Source: Epilithonimonas caeni DSM 17710
GTDB lineage: Bacteria; Bacteroidota; Bacteroidia; Flavobacteriales; Weeksellaceae
DNA length: 64,000 bases
NCBI RefSeq assembly: GCF_000426465.1
Contig: NZ_KE384527.1
Location: 210,543-274,542, forward strand
Direction: 5' to 3'
Under the pieces are notes generated by a model. It ran no database searches. It was not told where the DNA came from and was given only the letters and a program-made list of their open reading frames with translations. Below are positions 45-15,621 of the stretch, piece by piece; the first letter of the stretch is position 1; each line of letters begins with the position of its first letter. A program made the translations under genes and the position numbers.

Positions 45-1273
<1,229 letters not shown>

Positions 1274-1274
1274 T

Positions 1275-4200
1275 TTAAAAATTCCAATTTATTGTACCAT
1301 CAATATGCATTTCGAAATCTTTGCCTTCTATTGCAAAATTCCACTGTCCTTGTCTTAATCTTAAAAATATCTGTCTTTCATCGAAATTAATAGACGAATA
1401 TTCTGGATTATCTTTTTTCAATTCAGTATCTATACCTGCTGCTAAATGATGTCTAAACTTTATTCTTCCGTCTTTTTCAAATTGATACATTTTAAACATT
1501 CTATTGGATAACTCAGGTTTTTCTAAATCTTTTAATTCGTAAATACTTTCTTTATAAAACAAGACTTTATCACCGTTTTTTAAGACAGAATAAAGAGGTA
1601 GCTGTATCTTATTTTTCCCTTTTCCTGCTTCAAAATTTGAAAACTCTGGCTCGACAAAAAGATTTTGAATATTTTTTAATTTGAGTTCCGCTACGTCTAT
1701 AATAGAAAGAATTCTCATAGCTTTACCGGAATCACTTTTGTAAAACAGACAATATGTGTTCTCACCATTAGTTGCTAATGTAGACTTTTTATATTCTTTG
1801 CCTGAAACAAAACTGTGATTATGAACTTTAATTGCTGTTGCATATTTTAACCCGTTTTCAAAACAGCGTATTGTTCTTATTTTGTTGACTTTATTTCCTT
1901 TTTTATCAAGCATATAAACGCCTTCGGTTAAAGCTGTTTTAAAATCCGATTCTTCAACTTGCCTTTTAATTATTTTAAACAAATCTTTATCAACAATTGC
2001 TTTTTCAATTTCTTCAAGACTTTTGAATCCCGGAGAATTAGCATCCTTTTTATAAACCAAAGGTTTTCTGACAGCTAGAAAAATTTCATCTGTAAGAATC
2101 ATTTTTCTATTATCATCAAACAAAATCTTATTATCCTTATCCCTTACAGGCTGTTTGATGGCTCCATAGAAAGTTTCTCCATGCAACTGCCCACGAATTG
2201 TATCACCTTTTGCAACTCGTTTTTTTCTATTGCCTGATTTGTCTGTATCATAAACTATTTTTCCTCTTTTTCTTATTGTTTTAGATGTTTGAGTAATAGT
2301 TCGGCTATCCGTCAAATTATTAATTAAAACCTTATCTTTTAATTCCAAAATATAATTTTCAGAAAAATTATTCCAGCCCATAGGAAGTTCGTGATATGTT
2401 TTTCCGGTTCTGTTATCAATTTCGTTTTGGTAAGCCTTAATAATTCTTTCTCTATGAAAAGCATTTGGAATTAACGTAAGAATTGCGGCATCCTGAGCGT
2501 GATGACTGTGTACACTTCTGTCTTTTTTAGAATCCCTTGATTGTACCTTATAAACTTTCTTAAAAATATCCGTGACACCACCTTTCTCTACAGAAACCCT
2601 TTTGAACAGTGTTTTAAAATATGGCAAAGCGTACTTTGTAATAATCTGAGTATCTCTCAACTGATTATTTCTCCATCCAGCTTTATATTCTGTAATCGTA
2701 AAGGTTGCTAACTTGGATTTCAGATAATCCAAATCCATTTTTATGGTGTGATATTTTACAATACAAAAATCTTTATAATCTCTTGTACTTGCATAAGAAG
2801 CCTTCTTTTTCCATTCATCAAATAGTTTTTCAAGCTCCTCAATTTTCTTCCAAGTAACTATTTTCTCTGTTTTGCCTTTTAACTCTTTGTATTCTATTTT
2901 TCTTTCTCCAAAAATAAATTCGATATTCCTGATTATTGGATTATAACTTTCACCATTAATAAACTGCTCAGTATCATAATTAGCTAATTGTGTCGGAAAT
3001 TTCTTTCCTTTTTGTAAACGGTTATATCCCGAGTCGGCAATGGTGAGATTTTTCAATTCGTTATCAAAACTAATACTCGCAGGAATTGTATGTTCAAAAT
3101 CATACTTGCTACCAATGATTAAGTCTGAAAAGGAAATTGGCTTGCCTGTATAAAGGCAAATTTTGTTTTGTTCGTGCCACAATCTGATTTTACGAACTAA
3201 TGTATCTTCATCGATAAGATTCACATTAGGAAACTGTTCCCGATAAATTGCAAGTTCTTTTCTGTAAGTATCATTTTCTTTTTCTCTTTCCTTTTGCCAA
3301 ATCTCAATTGCTTTTCTTTTATTTTTGTCGTTGAGTTCTCTTGCAATCTCAATCACTACTCTTGTTTCTTCATCTATCTTTCCTGTCTGTAAAAGATAAT
3401 TCACCAATTTTTTCAGTTTATGCAAAGACTTCAACGCCATAGGATTTTTAAATCCTTTGCTCAGTGGCTCTGGATTGCCTAATAATTTTATTTCCCGACC
3501 TTCAAACTCTGCATCTGGATTTCTTGTCAAGAAACCGCCTCTGTTTTTTTCTTTAATATAATACTTTTTCTTACCTAAAGAATATTCTAAATAATTTTCT
3601 GCTTCCGCATAATTTTCCTGTTCAGACGGATGCCAAAGATATTTCTTCTTATCTTCTGAAACATGGTAAGTTTCTCTTAAAAAATTAAATATCTTTTGAT
3701 CAATTCTTTCAGGCTGTACAAAAAGATTCTTCTTATCAAAAAAAGATTTCTTTAAAAACTCAAGGTATTTTACTGAAACGTATGTAACAATATTTGCTTT
3801 ACTTTCTTCTTCAAGTTTATCCCAGCTTTCCTGTCCGTAATTGTCAATAATACTTTTTAAAACAAGTTTGTTTTCAGTACTATCCAAGTTTCTGTCGTCA
3901 GTAATGTAATAACGGTTTTCATCATTAAGCATTTCTGATATCAAACTGTTAACAATCGTTGCATTCTTTCTGTTTGCTGAATCTTGATTTAAAATCTTAA
4001 AAATCTCTTCGGAGAAATGATTAATAAGTGTTTCGGAAATTTTATTTTCCCCAAGCATCTTATAAAGGTTAGCCATATATACGGCATGGCTGTATAAAAA
4101 CCCCTTTTGTAAATAGGGAAGAATTTTCTTAATTGCAGAAAGGCTTAAAGTTGCAAAACCTTGTTGTAATTTGATTTTAGAAAATTTATTCGCTTTTTCT

Positions 4201-5489
4201 TCATCTAAATTTAATTTCTCTAAAGCAAATTTCTTAAGATTTTCTTGTCCGTCAAAAGTCATTAGGACGTGCCATACATCTTCAAAAGTATATTCAGTGT
4301 GAGATTTTTTAATAGGCTGCGAACTTCTTTCTCCGTTAATATCCCATTTTAATATATCTTTCCAGTCTTCTCCAAAAACATCCTGAAACTGTTTAAGTAA
4401 TTTTACAGAAAGTACTTTCGTTTTCTCATGATGCTTTGATGTTCTTTTGGCTCCATCTTTCTTAAGTTGCTTATCAATATCGATTAGTTCAAAATCTGGT
4501 TTTGACTTGTAAAATAATGGATAAATCTTGGTTTGAGTATATTCCTGCTTATCTTCATTTAAAGGTGGGATAATATTTAAGTTATTAATAAAAACCCAGG
4601 TTCTATATTCCTCATAAAGAGGATGAGTTACCGCTACTCTTTTTTTTCCTTTTTCATAAATACAGTTTCCGATCAAGCCTTTCTGTGTTCTTAAAGGACG
4701 CTGCCAAATAATTGCTTTCCATAGTTTAGAATAATCTTCTCTAGAAATATCGTGTAAATCACAGATAATTTTTAATTCTGTTTCGCTATCTTTTCTGAGA
4801 TTATATCTTTGTCTTATTCTTCCTCCGAAATCTTTTTGATAATGATATAGTGCAGCACCTAAAGTTTTGTATTTCTCTAAATATTCTTCAATATCATTTC
4901 TTCCTTTTGTTCCGTTTTTATCACTTCCGGTTAACATCGTCTTAGCTTCTTCCTCATCTCTTCCTTTAAAACCTCTTCTTTGAACAAGCTGATAAAAAAC
5001 TCTTCCTAATATTTTAGGATTGTTTACAAATACATCTTTATATTCTGGATTACCTACAAAGGCTCTAAAAACGTAGTAACTCTCATGTTTGTCTTTTCCG
5101 AACAAGTGAAAGTCCGGCAGACCGTCACCATCAAAATCAAATCTTATCCAATTCAGAAATTCTTCGGATTGAGGGTATTCTCTTTTCTTACCTTTTCTGT
5201 ACGTTTTCCAATTATTAAAATCTTCGATAGACAGAGGACACATATTTCTTTCAATAAGAAATTGTAAAATTCCGAACTTTCTGTATTTTTCAGCTTGGTA
5301 ATTTCTTCTTTTACCTCTGCTCTCCGTTCTTTTCTGAACTTTAGGAAATTCATTACCTTTTTCTGAAGCAACGCCTTTCTCAAAAGTAATCACTCCAAAA
5401 TCTTCTATCTGATTGCCATCTAAGTCTAAATTTCTAATTGCCCAACCGGTACTATTACTACCAAGGTCAATTCCTAAAACTTTTTTCAT
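1275..5489 (-). CDS. cas9: Type II-C CRISPR effector nuclease Cas9
   Basis: The protein has 1404 residues, large for II-C but usual for the Bacteroidota branch. RuvC-I has Asp8 in GIDLGSNSTGWAI. An Arg-rich bridge helix follows (KRTESRGKRRNYQAEKYRKF). RuvC-II has Glu714 in VVIEIARELN. The HNH motif is FEHTIPAS with His800, and Asn823 lies 23 residues on, the spacing seen in SpCas9 (H840/N863). RuvC-III has HHAQDAA with His997 and Asp1000. Every catalytic residue is therefore present. The C-terminal about 350 residues would hold the PAM-interacting region. No csn2 or cas4 accompanies it. A weak -7 box (TATATTCG, minus strand, 5530-5523) lies about 35 bases before the ATG. The tracrRNA is divergent upstream. 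Confidence 0.98.
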   Translation of the reverse strand: MKKVLGIDLGSNSTGWAIRNLDLDGNQIEDFGVITFEKGVASEKGNEFPKVQKRTESRGKRRNYQAEKYRKFGILQFLIERNMCPLSIEDFNNWKTYRKGKKREYPQSEEFLNWIRFDFDGDGLPDFHLFGKDKHESYYVFRAFVGNPEYKDVFVNNPKILGRVFYQLVQRRGFKGRDEEEAKTMLTGSDKNGTKGRNDIEEYLEKYKTLGAALYHYQKDFGGRIRQRYNLRKDSETELKIICDLHDISREDYSKLWKAIIWQRPLRTQKGLIGNCIYEKGKKRVAVTHPLYEEYRTWVFINNLNIIPPLNEDKQEYTQTKIYPLFYKSKPDFELIDIDKQLKKDGAKRTSKHHEKTKVLSVKLLKQFQDVFGEDWKDILKWDINGERSSQPIKKSHTEYTFEDVWHVLMTFDGQENLKKFALEKLNLDEEKANKFSKIKLQQGFATLSLSAIKKILPYLQKGFLYSHAVYMANLYKMLGENKISETLINHFSEEIFKILNQDSANRKNATIVNSLISEMLNDENRYYITDDRNLDSTENKLVLKSIIDNYGQESWDKLEEESKANIVTYVSVKYLEFLKKSFFDKKNLFVQPERIDQKIFNFLRETYHVSEDKKKYLWHPSEQENYAEAENYLEYSLGKKKYYIKEKNRGGFLTRNPDAEFEGREIKLLGNPEPLSKGFKNPMALKSLHKLKKLVNYLLQTGKIDEETRVVIEIARELNDKNKRKAIEIWQKEREKENDTYRKELAIYREQFPNVNLIDEDTLVRKIRLWHEQNKICLYTGKPISFSDLIIGSKYDFEHTIPASISFDNELKNLTIADSGYNRLQKGKKFPTQLANYDTEQFINGESYNPIIRNIEFIFGERKIEYKELKGKTEKIVTWKKIEELEKLFDEWKKKASYASTRDYKDFCIVKYHTIKMDLDYLKSKLATFTITEYKAGWRNNQLRDTQIITKYALPYFKTLFKRVSVEKGGVTDIFKKVYKVQSRDSKKDRSVHSHHAQDAAILTLIPNAFHRERIIKAYQNEIDNRTGKTYHELPMGWNNFSENYILELKDKVLINNLTDSRTITQTSKTIRKRGKIVYDTDKSGNRKKRVAKGDTIRGQLHGETFYGAIKQPVRDKDNKILFDDNRKMILTDEIFLAVRKPLVYKKDANSPGFKSLEEIEKAIVDKDLFKIIKRQVEESDFKTALTEGVYMLDKKGNKVNKIRTIRCFENGLKYATAIKVHNHSFVSGKEYKKSTLATNGENTYCLFYKSDSGKAMRILSIIDVAELKLKNIQNLFVEPEFSNFEAGKGKNKIQLPLYSVLKNGDKVLFYKESIYELKDLEKPELSNRMFKMYQFEKDGRIKFRHHLAAGIDTELKKDNPEYSSINFDERQIFLRLRQGQWNFAIEGKDFEMHIDGTINWNF

Positions 5490-5575
5490 AAAATTATCAC
5501 ACTGGTTATCAATTACATAATACGAATATACAAAAATTCAGGTTCATTACATATTAAATATAAAAAATAATTATA

Positions 5576-5745
5576 TATCTTTGATTTAGAAAGTGAAAGT
5601 TTATTTCCGGAAATAAATTGAATACGCCCTCCAAAAGCATATTCTGACCTTAGATGTTTAGCTTTCTTTCTAATTATTTATTAATTAAATTAATTAATAT
5701 GTAAGTTGTGAATTGCTTTAATCCCTGTATTATCAGGGATTTTTA
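5576..5745 (+). ncRNA. Candidate small RNA with a solitary CRISPR-repeat-like segment and its own terminator
   Basis: A perfect Bacteroidota -7 box, TATCTTTG, lies at 5576-5583 on the plus strand; no good -33 box is seen. Downstream is an 18-bp palindrome (5600-5617), then an AT-only stretch, then GTTGTGAATTGCTTT at 5705-5719. Bases 5706-5719 are perfectly complementary to the tracrRNA anti-repeat at 5821-5834. A strong terminator follows directly: stem AATCCCTG/CAGGGATT (5720-5727 and 5734-5741) and a U-tract. The predicted RNA is about 155 nt. It could pair with tracrRNA as a guide-like RNA, as a decoy, or be a relic of an old repeat. Transcription is unproven. Confidence 0.5.
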
Positions 5746-5809
5746 AATTTACAATGTTTTTTCTGTAGTAAATTACGGTTTTCCATATTTACAATAAAAA
5801 AATTGTTTT

Positions 5810-5888
5810 TATATTTGTAAAAAGCAATTCACAATAAGGCTAAAAGCCGAAGAAAATCTTTAATCCTGCGTACTCCGTGGGATTTTTA
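5810..5888 (+). ncRNA. Predicted tracrRNA with its promoter
   Basis: The -7 box TATATTTG lies at 5810-5817, so transcription should begin near 5821-5825; the -33 region is not clear. The RNA opens with the anti-repeat (5821-5835), continues with a small nexus-like stem GGCT/AGCC (5838-5841 and 5845-5848), and ends in a hairpin ATCCTGCG/CGTGGGAT (5863-5870 and 5876-5883, two G-U pairs) followed by U5. The position, divergent from cas9, and the short two-hairpin form fit II-C tracrRNAs. The array repeat should begin GTTGTGAATTGCTTT. The duplex length cannot be fixed because the array is outside the window. Confidence 0.8.
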
Positions 5889-6015
5889 TTTATATAGAAG
5901 TCATTTTCTCATAATTGATATTAAATTAAAAAATATAATATTGTCAAAATCAATCTTCAATAAGATATCTTACTAAAACAAAAAGTCTGTATTTTAATCC
6001 TTTTAAAAATCCTGA
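5889..6015. other. Gap before tex, nothing clear
   Basis: This very AT-rich stretch separates the tracrRNA terminator from tex. No ORF, repeat or clear -7/-33 pair was seen. The tex promoter must lie here or upstream. Confidence 0.4.
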
Positions 6016-8211: not shown

Positions 8212-9780
8212 CTAAAAATCCTTACTACTCCTTTTAGGCTCTTTCACATCCGGCCATTTTGCCGGTTCGCCTTTTTCGTTGTTGGGCATGATGCGCTTTT
8301 CCCGGCTTACAAATTCCGGGTCCTCCGAAGCCATATAAGCTAAAGTAGCAGTCAGGATCACATTATTTTTCAACTCATCAAAAACGATCTTGTCATAAGT
8401 ATCTTTTGTCGTGTGCCAGGTGTACCCGAAATAACCCCAGTTAAGCGAACTCAGGGAAAATCCCGGAACTCCTGCTGCCACAAACGATGCATGGTCAGAA
8501 CCACCACCTCCGGGCATTCCGGGGAAGTTAGTTTTAATCTGGTCTTTTACTTTTTTAGGTGCGGCATCCAGCCATCTTCCGACATAAGCATAAGAGTCTT
8601 TGAAACCCTGCCCGCTGATGTCCACCACTCTACCTGTTCCGTTATCCTGATTAAAAACGGCCTGCACACCTTTGATAATTTCCGGATTGTCAGCTACAAA
8701 ACCTCTTGAACCGTTCAGACCTTGTTCTTCGCTTCCCCAAAGTCCAACGACAATGGTTCTTTTTGGGTTTGGATAGTATTTTTTGAGGATTCTCATAGTT
8801 TCCAGCATTGTCAGAGTTCCCGTTCCATTATCCGTCGCACCTTGCGCACCGTCCCAGGAATCGAGGTGAGCGGAAAGAATCACATATTCGTTCGGTTTTT
8901 CCGAGCCTTTTATCATCCCGATGGTGTTGAAGGATTTGGCTTCCGGCAACACTTTGGATTGAGCATCCACTTTGACTCTCGGTTTTGCCCCTTTTTCTGC
9001 CATTCTGTAAAGCATTCCGTAATCTTCCAAATCGACATCGAACATTGGGATTGATTTGGTTTTAGCACCGAAAATACGGTTAGTGCTGTGGATTCCGGTC
9101 CAGTTGGAAATGGCGATTCCCGCAGCTCCTGCTTTCTCTAAAGCTTCCGGCAAAGTAGAATTATCATAACCGATTGATTTGATATAATCTGCAAAATCCT
9201 TTTTAGCTTGTTCTTTTTCAGCTTTCAGTTTTTCATATAATTCGGGAGTTGCAAACTCTTTGATTTGTTCGTCTGAACGTCCGATTTTCTGGTATTGTGC
9301 CATCAAAACGATTTTACCCTTCACCGAAGGTAGCCATTTATCAAATTCGGCTTTAGAAGATACTTTTGGAAGAATAACCACTTCTGCTTCTACCGATTTT
9401 TTAGTTGCCGGACTCCACGCCAATTGTGTAGCAGATAAGGTTTTGGTTCTTGGATAAACCAAATCTACGTGTGTTGTTCCGCGCTGCCAGCCTTTCCAGG
9501 TTCCGAATTGCTGAAGATCAGCTTCGATTCCCCAAGATTTCAGTTTGTCGGCTGTGTAGTTGTTAGCAGCCAACATTTCGGGCGTTCCAACAAGACGTGG
9601 TCCGATTTCATCCAAAAGTTCATAAGCCATATCTTCTAATTGGGAGTTATTATTGACTTCGTTAACGAAATTTTGAATGATGGGCTTAAGTTGTTCTTCG
9701 GATTTGGTCTGAGCGTTGACCAAAGTGATCTGAGCTGCAAAGAAAACTGCAGACATTGTTAAAAACGTGTTTCTCTTCAT
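8212..9780 (-). CDS. Secreted M28 family zinc aminopeptidase
   Basis: The protein has 522 residues and a Sec signal peptide (residues 1-23, ending VNAQ). The M28 metal ligands read as His305 and Asp317 (SAHLDSWDG...ATDNG), Glu351/Glu352 (GSEEQG), Asp379 (FNQDNGTG) and His430 (GGSDHASF). The region between about residues 130 and 270 resembles a PA-type insert that is common in these exopeptidases. It should cleave N-terminal residues or dipeptides in the periplasm or outside the cell. Its substrate cannot be read from sequence. The gene is alone, with terminators on both sides. Confidence 0.92.
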   Translation of the reverse strand: MKRNTFLTMSAVFFAAQITLVNAQTKSEEQLKPIIQNFVNEVNNNSQLEDMAYELLDEIGPRLVGTPEMLAANNYTADKLKSWGIEADLQQFGTWKGWQRGTTHVDLVYPRTKTLSATQLAWSPATKKSVEAEVVILPKVSSKAEFDKWLPSVKGKIVLMAQYQKIGRSDEQIKEFATPELYEKLKAEKEQAKKDFADYIKSIGYDNSTLPEALEKAGAAGIAISNWTGIHSTNRIFGAKTKSIPMFDVDLEDYGMLYRMAEKGAKPRVKVDAQSKVLPEAKSFNTIGMIKGSEKPNEYVILSAHLDSWDGAQGATDNGTGTLTMLETMRILKKYYPNPKRTIVVGLWGSEEQGLNGSRGFVADNPEIIKGVQAVFNQDNGTGRVVDISGQGFKDSYAYVGRWLDAAPKKVKDQIKTNFPGMPGGGGSDHASFVAAGVPGFSLSSLNWGYFGYTWHTTKDTYDKIVFDELKNNVILTATLAYMASEDPEFVSREKRIMPNNEKGEPAKWPDVKEPKRSSKDF

Positions 9781-15427: not shown

Positions 15428-15621
15428 TTTGAGTTGGAGGGTTTGAGAGTTTGAAATTGGAAGCGTTTAAAACCAATGATGATTGAATGTTGAATCACCT
15501 TAGCCCTGATGGGAACGGCATCCTTTTTTGGCATTGCGGTGAAAATTTCTAAAGATTACTTTACTTCGTTCGCAATGACAAAAAAGATATAGTGGACAGC
15601 AGGTTCCGGCTCCTAAAAATT
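15428..15621. repeat. Intergenic region with dispersed-repeat fragments
   Basis: No gene is seen. Pieces such as TAGCCCTGATGGGAACGGCA (15502-15521) and CAGCAGGTTCCGGCTCC (15598-15614) resemble interspersed extragenic sequences often found in flavobacterial genomes. That recognition is from memory of their general form and was not checked by search. Confidence 0.45.

Follow-up and report, generated by a model that had tools for sequence, protein, structure and literature searches.

A solitary-repeat RNA gene beside cas9 in Epilithonimonas caeni and related Bacteroidota, with a predicted guide to the promoter region of cas9 and of the RNA itself

The type II-C locus and its solitary repeat

We analysed a window of 64,000 nucleotides from Epilithonimonas caeni DSM 17710 (contig NZ_KE384527.1, positions 210,543 to 274,542 of the forward strand). 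Its left end carries cas9, cas1 and cas2 (Table 1), and this gene set, cas1-cas2-cas9 alone, points to subtype II-C. The Cas9 translation contains GIDLGSNS, YDFEHTIP and HHAQDA, which we take to be Cas9 motifs, the first RuvC-I and the second HNH. Upstream of cas9, the plus strand holds the solitary-repeat element first and the tracrRNA next; the element has cas9 on one side and, on the other, a gene whose product has S1 and ComEA-like domains and reached no NCBIfam cut-off. The CRISPR array is located at the opposite end of the locus, past cas2, as it is in relatives, among which Epilithonimonas hominis (L012, L017) is a close one. The only Rfam match of the window at the gathering threshold was a Flavo-1 RNA (RF01705) at 15498-15610. 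Upstream of the tracrRNA promoter, an inverted repeat resembling TACGG....CC[AG]TA (5774-5786) recurs in altered form in several relatives and may represent an operator.

Table 1. Features of the cas9 end of the window (positions within the window)
Feature	Position	Strand	Basis
cas9 (type II-C, 1404 aa)	1275..5489	-	TIGR01865 cas_Csn1, 291.8 bits (cut-off 100); HNH_4
cas1	380..1273	-	TIGR03639, type II Cas1
cas2	45..383	-	TIGR01573
Putative -7 box, likely cas9 promoter	5523..5530	-	TATATTCG as read on the minus strand; differs from TAnnTTTG at one position
PAM-side bases of the target, TGAACC	5541..5546	-	fit NNRNCC from 7 spacer protospacers
Predicted target (protospacer seed) of the RNA guide	5547..5557	-	exact 11-nt match to 5694-5704
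-7 box of the guide RNA gene	5576..5583	+	TATCTTTG, 29 nt from seed start
5' part of the predicted RNA, including 18-bp palindrome 5600-5617	5588..5704	+	conserved with L037 and L039
Guide seed TTAATATGTAA	5694..5704	+	match to 5547-5557; joint change in relatives
crRNA-like partial repeat GTTGTGAATTGCTTT, predicted to pair with tracrRNA	5705..5719	+	5' end as in array repeats of relatives
Intrinsic terminator of the guide RNA	5720..5745	+	perfect 8-bp stem and T run at 5720-5741
-7 box of tracrRNA	5810..5817	+	TATATTTG; conserved in L036
tracrRNA	5821..5890	+	anti-repeat 5821-5835, terminator 5862-5884; identical up to the terminator in L036 and L044

An earlier note on this DNA had described a solitary CRISPR repeat with its own promoter box and terminator, able to pair with the neighbouring tracrRNA, and each of these parts was found again. 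The reverse complement of the repeat recurs at the anti-repeat with one difference, which corresponds to 14 Watson-Crick pairs and one G-U pair, and a search with the complement of the repeat at up to two mismatches returned 3 matches in the window versus 0.37 expected. The -7 box is present, and the terminator hairpin follows directly after the repeat; among positions 5400-6000, 3 terminator-like sites were found versus 0.1 expected in shuffled sequences. Outside the masked array stretch left of base 1, the exact 15-mer is unique in its own genome, while one mismatch adds four more places, one of which is the anti-repeat. An array repeat with a different 5' end would have spoken against the note. 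So far as it is visible this is not the case: the edge of the window's own array, left of base 1, reads AATTGCTTTCATTTTTGAGTATCTTTGAGATATAGCACAAC, and the 47-nt array repeats of seven relatives (L035, L036, L037, L038, L040, L045 and L048) begin with GTTGTGAATTGCTTTCA.

The 5' part of the predicted RNA contains an 18-bp palindrome, TTTATTTCCGGAAATAAA, with symmetric changes in L037 and L039; L015 has another 18-bp palindrome. A structured 5' domain was considered, given a three-locus alignment with two-sided changes at 13 of 35 predicted pairs, and was dropped when the fold z-scores (-0.2, -0.7, -1.3 and 0.0) were not clearly better than those of shuffles. The whole window RNA including its terminator gave a fold z-score of -2.0.

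A candidate guide, its target and the PAM

In type II systems, the guide consists of the bases directly before the repeat. The last 11 nt before the solitary repeat, TTAATATGTAA, recur exactly on the minus strand and are followed there by TGAACC. This match, which the earlier note had overlooked although it had recognised the element itself, sits between the cas9-side box and the RNA's own box, that is, between two divergent promoters. The combined seed and PAM pattern TTAATATGTAANNRNCC has a single occurrence in the 4.11 Mb genome, namely at the target. Since the reversed pattern, used as control, gave 2 matches, the genome-wide expectation is of order one; the lone site falls in the one relevant promoter.

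To derive a PAM independently of these targets, we searched 316 genomes of the family with 88 spacers from four relatives, and two first-look candidates were scored per genome listed. We found at least seven protospacers outside arrays, five for spacers of G045 and two for spacers of G162. Their 3' flanks were TTACCG, AAGACC, TAATCC, ATACCC, ATGCCC, GGATCC and CAACCC, at 0, 0, 1, 1, 2, 2 and 3 mismatches. The consensus is NNRNCC, with R at position 3 in 7/7, C at position 5 in 7/7 and C at position 6 in 6/7. Both source genomes encode a Cas9 that is 90-91% identical, and for the more distant loci L038 (72%) and L015 (59%) the PAM was taken from the same consensus. The first two protospacers are self-targets (L079 1501-1530 and L078 1501-1530): the perfect match in G162 has G at position 6, and the perfect match in G045 has an intact NNRNCC.

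GWATTN was reported upstream of protospacers in Riemerella (PMC6008519); if the crRNA strand is the other one, the downstream motif would become NAATWC, which likewise has C at position 6. Other Bacteroidota type II-C systems have different PAMs: those reported for F. psychrophilum and F. columnare are NNAAAG (PMC10309648) and NNNNNTAAA (PMC8092290). Among arrays of the other repeat class, that of L123 matched F. columnare phages and that of L124 matched no phage.

The same arrangement in relatives

We then compared the cas9 loci of 25 other genomes or records, together with L072, which was found by its tracr-like sequence. In total, 28 loci (two of them in G005) were scanned for the 5' end of the repeat outside arrays, allowing one mismatch. 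Five elements were detected: in the window, L037 (G180, Cas9 83% identical to that of the window), L038 (G246, 72%), L039 (G097, 71-72%) and L015 (Flavobacterium salilacus, 59%). Their guides end in TTAATATGTAA, TTAGTGTATGA, TTATCATATAT, TTATTATATAA and GCAGTGTGTTGT, respectively. Every element has exactly one 3'-anchored guide match of at least 11 nt in its locus, always on the opposite strand and upstream of the RNA's box. The match is 11 nt long in the window, L037, L038 and L039, and 12 nt long in L015. Position 12 is mismatched in four loci and the L015 match ends after 12; outside the seed, 7, 4, 4, 7 and 5 of 13 positions match. All five targets fit NNRNCC, their PAM sides being TGAACC, TAAACC (L037), TTAACC (L038), ACAACC (L039) and ATGACC (L015).

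The seeds differ by 2 to 10 of 11 positions between any two loci. Because each guide matches its own target exactly, every one of these differences is mirrored in the target, and a guide held against another of the five regions matched over at most 7 nt. We also scanned 17 cas9-upstream regions without reference to the repeat, on both strands, for inverted pairs of at least 10 nt with NNRNCC. Eight pairs were obtained: five are the same guides, directly abutting GTTGTGAATTG, two overlap repeat or anti-repeat sequence and one is a palindrome. The remaining solitary-repeat matches of the first scan (anti-repeats, coding DNA and others) had no guide match of at least 11 nt, with the exception of L067, which belongs to another repeat class.

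The putative cas9-side box lies 18 nt from the PAM in the window (with one mismatch), 19 nt in L037, 19 nt in L039 and 16 nt in L015, and is exact in the last three; a clear cas9-side -7 box was not found in L038. The RNA's box follows the seed start after 29 nt in the window, 27 in L037, 16 in L038, 18 in L039 (one mismatch) and 27 in L015. A bound Cas9 would cover upstream elements of both promoters. In four of the five loci, the target is directly flanked by the start of cas9 on one side and by the RNA gene on the other. L039 has its tracrRNA between cas9 and the element, so that coverage there would be limited to the promoter of the RNA itself and a divergent box, CAAAAATA. In L038 and L015, the repeat runs via a short linker, which contains another TAnnTTTG box, into the tracrRNA; judged from its sequence, this form is a natural single-guide RNA, and a short tracrRNA could start from the inner box.

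A search for conservation in related genomes, as the earlier note had suggested, recovered the arrangement in four relatives, each with a guide of its own and a target that matches it, but not in most relatives. The element is present in 5 of the 16 genomes whose Cas9 is at least about 55% identical and 11 showed none; among the 16, the contig of L021 ends 273 nt upstream of cas9, G201 has a broken Cas9, and that of G005 is divided between two contigs. L036 and L044, whose Cas9 is about 89-94% identical, differ little from the window in the tracrRNA and the DNA upstream of it, but they lack about 270 bp that include the element and have different DNA upstream of cas9. No element was detected in a set of eight scanned Flavobacterium loci (a ninth, L121, has no array and was left out), nor in nine Flavobacteriaceae loci (L063-L071) apart from the candidate in L067. 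The pattern GTTGTGAATTGCWTTD, which does not capture, for example, the elements of L039 and L038, occurred at four places in 15 genomes: one is the L037 element, two lie within arrays (L036 and L037), and the fourth, in L106, resembles coding DNA. A tracrRNA pattern had 2 matches in 395 genomes of the class, one in the genome of the window and one, a candidate by sequence, in G670.

Two further observations were made in these loci. L067 contains a possible sixth element (9504-9560) of the 36-nt repeat class: a solitary GTTGTGGCTTGATAGAGATTAT and a terminator upstream of cas9. A TAnnTTTG box precedes a 12-13 nt same-strand match of its candidate guide, and after this match come the bases (G)AAAGCTAAT, which are close to the reported F. 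columnare PAM (PMC8092290). Separately, AAGGATTATTCCGTTGTGAAAACATT is found near the tracrRNA in six genomes (L035 9938-9963, L049 9193-9218, L066 2022-2047, L068 8569-8594, L070 9428-9453 and L120 6390-6415) and not in the window. It follows a second anti-repeat in L035, L049 and L120, the three that were read, and could fold back on the anti-repeat.

Possible function and relation to known systems

The seeds of three of the five elements consist almost wholly of A and T. A match in one locus therefore counts for little as evidence, and the argument depends on position, PAM and joint change. To estimate the contribution of chance in such AT-rich DNA, 30-mers were taken from the same loci at every third position of the first 20 kb. 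The observed match length was reached, with no PAM demanded, by 17 of 13206, 25 of 7873, 16 of 5912, 30 of 8096 and 13 of 7295 (about 0.1-0.4%), and matches of at least 8 nt with NNRACC numbered 3, 1, 1, 2 and 5. However, all five elements match, all with a PAM, and only 7, 0, 1, 9 and 1 of 200,000 random AT-rich 11-mers (Markov-1) matched an NNRNCC-flanked site in the same region. We therefore consider the probability that the matches are fortuitous to be negligible. A pair of inverted half sites for a protein regulator, about 147 bp apart, is a very improbable substitute for guide and target. A looping regulator would also give an inverted pair that changes jointly, and an 18-bp palindrome lies in between, but one member of the pair borders on the CRISPR repeat in every case, and its partner is flanked by NNRNCC at the place of the PAM in 5/5 loci. 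Even less credible is a functionless relic, which the earlier note had offered as a decayed array end. Just 15 nt of the repeat are left, and most genomes with a similar Cas9 showed no element; yet the array lies at the far end of the locus, beyond cas2, the RNA comes with a box and a terminator of its own, and differences in the guide go together with differences in the target.

The role preferred in the earlier note, a decoy or regulatory RNA, was favoured there because the 30 preceding bases are rich in A and T. As a decoy, the solitary repeat would titrate tracrRNA or occupy Cas9 without a DNA target. The 15-bp pairing would allow this, and titration could be a side effect, but a decoy needs no guide, and in five loci the bases before the repeat match PAM-flanked promoter DNA and co-differ with it in the four relatives; the decoy is probably wrong, and we regard it as improbable. 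The note's other option, that the RNA loads Cas9 with the preceding bases as guide (with scaRNA and tracr-L as precedents), is supported by the comparative evidence. A narrower reading overlaps with it: the guide RNA would mainly limit itself, or tracrRNA or antisense transcription, rather than cas9. In keeping with this, the target is upstream of the RNA's own -7 box in 5/5 loci and cas9 is not adjacent in L039. On the other hand, the target lies directly between cas9 and the RNA gene in 4/5 loci, and cas9-side -7 boxes are found 16-19 nt from the PAM in the window, L037 and L015, that of the window with one mismatch. We consider this restriction unlikely, though clearly less so than the decoy.

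The explanation that we prefer is autorepression of a type II-C Bacteroidota Cas9, in split or fused form, by a partial guide RNA that would bring Cas9 to the promoters of cas9 and of the RNA. Judged from guide, repeat, terminator, target, PAM and joint change in the sequences, this is very probably correct. Once transcribed, the small crRNA-like RNA would pair through its partial repeat with the tracrRNA of the adjoining gene and load Cas9. The complex would then bind the target beside TGAACC, in DNA common to both divergent promoters; as the match ends after 11 nt, we propose that Cas9 binds without cutting. Such binding would block transcription in both directions, a negative feedback that acts on cas9 as well as on the RNA that represses it. 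Some relatives would carry the guide-repeat part and the tracrRNA in one molecule, a natural single-guide RNA.

This proposal combines traits of several known regulators. crRNA-like regulatory mini-arrays target cas promoters in types I and V-A; they share the partial cas-promoter match and a repeat-derived RNA outside the array, but work with Class 1 or Cas12 effectors instead of Cas9 and tracrRNA. In Francisella novicida (type II-B), a scaRNA has an 11-bp match on FTN_1101 whose incomplete pairing prevents cleavage; Cas9 keeps its cleavage activity and binds the 5' UTR of the gene uncut (PMC12231574). As in that system, the window holds a putative non-array small RNA with a partial repeat and predicted pairing to tracrRNA, its own promoter box and terminator, and a match of about 11 bp to a PAM-flanked genomic site. 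In contrast to the lipoprotein gene target of F. novicida, the exact seed and PAM are found solely at the cas9/RNA promoter, in type II-C Bacteroidota and with another PAM.

The tracr-L of Streptococcus pyogenes (type II-A) steers Cas9 by a short match to its own cas promoter beside a PAM (PMC11417352, PMC8730458), and the guide of the element matches the same kind of site. For the tracr-L site, a guide was designed with 11 nt of complementarity (PMC11417352), and a review gives 9 bp (PMC8730458). Guide, repeat and tracrRNA form one transcript in tracr-L and, as far as can be predicted, in L038 and L015. In the window, by contrast, a terminator separates them: the guide RNA is a separate gene that would also cover its own promoter, and the repeat and tracrRNA sequences differ from those of tracr-L. 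Taking the 11-bp scaRNA precedent with incomplete pairing and the short tracr-L guides together, the most likely function is that Cas9 represses both its own gene and the guide RNA.

Other small RNAs are less similar. The scaRNA of Neisseria meningitidis also belongs to a type II-C locus and is Cas9-bound, but acts post-transcriptionally on efeO mRNA, and the available passages of the source mention no cas9-promoter guide (PMC13431127). Solitary repeat RNA anti-CRISPRs (Racr) likewise consist of a repeat unit outside an array, but are encoded by viruses and plasmids (PMC10651486); the present element lies beside cas9 and has a predicted targeting guide. The element had no match in phage or plasmid collections, no Cas9 relative was found in plasmids, and six peptide patterns and a repeat pattern had no match in viral contigs. 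Separately, Riemerella phages (RAP44, CRP19, GDF21 and others; 12 records, one of them labelled Shigella phage) matched arrays L073 1501-1618, L074 1501-1749 and L075 1501-1618. The two that were read, L073 and L074, carry small arrays of the type II-C repeat between a small gene and a dinD-like gene; these arrays hold one and three spacers and have an end like that of host arrays.

Autorepression of Cas9 by a natural guide is already known in type II-A streptococci, and repression through a partial match in type II-B Francisella. A prediction study from 2018 proposed scaRNA:tracrRNA pairs in some IIA/IIC systems, and its main text, as available, has no occurrence of Bacteroid, Flavobacter, Riemerella or Capnocytophaga (PMC6199352). 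Our literature search covered titles and the beginnings of abstracts, with most subscription papers outside its scope, and returned no cas9 autorepression in Bacteroidota type II-C. Within the literature searched, several traits appear to be new: the type II-C Bacteroidota form, a split RNA that has its own terminator and is predicted to target the cas9 promoter, the divergent promoter region common to both genes, and the coexistence of split and fused versions.

A broader reading is possible but somewhat short of probable. Here the element would be a modular cassette for autorepression, which type II-C systems of Bacteroidota would gain, lose and rearrange next to cas9: split in the window and L037, beyond the tracrRNA in L039 and fused in L038 and L015. 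One site would shut two divergent promoters, and an anti-CRISPR or a burst of crRNA that depletes free Cas9 or tracrRNA would re-open both. Seeds would drift, since a change in the guide can be rescued by a change in the promoter and vice versa, while the length would stay at 11-12 nt, between binding and cutting.

For further work on this Cas9 family, the inferred PAM NNRNCC is now on offer, and the elements represent natural, testable repressor guides; AT-rich stretches before solitary repeats are worth reading as guides. The split and fused forms in Bacteroidota type II-C systems, in which guide and target change jointly, suggest that Cas9 autorepression by a partial guide is a solution that arose repeatedly and was held near the same length of 11 nt.
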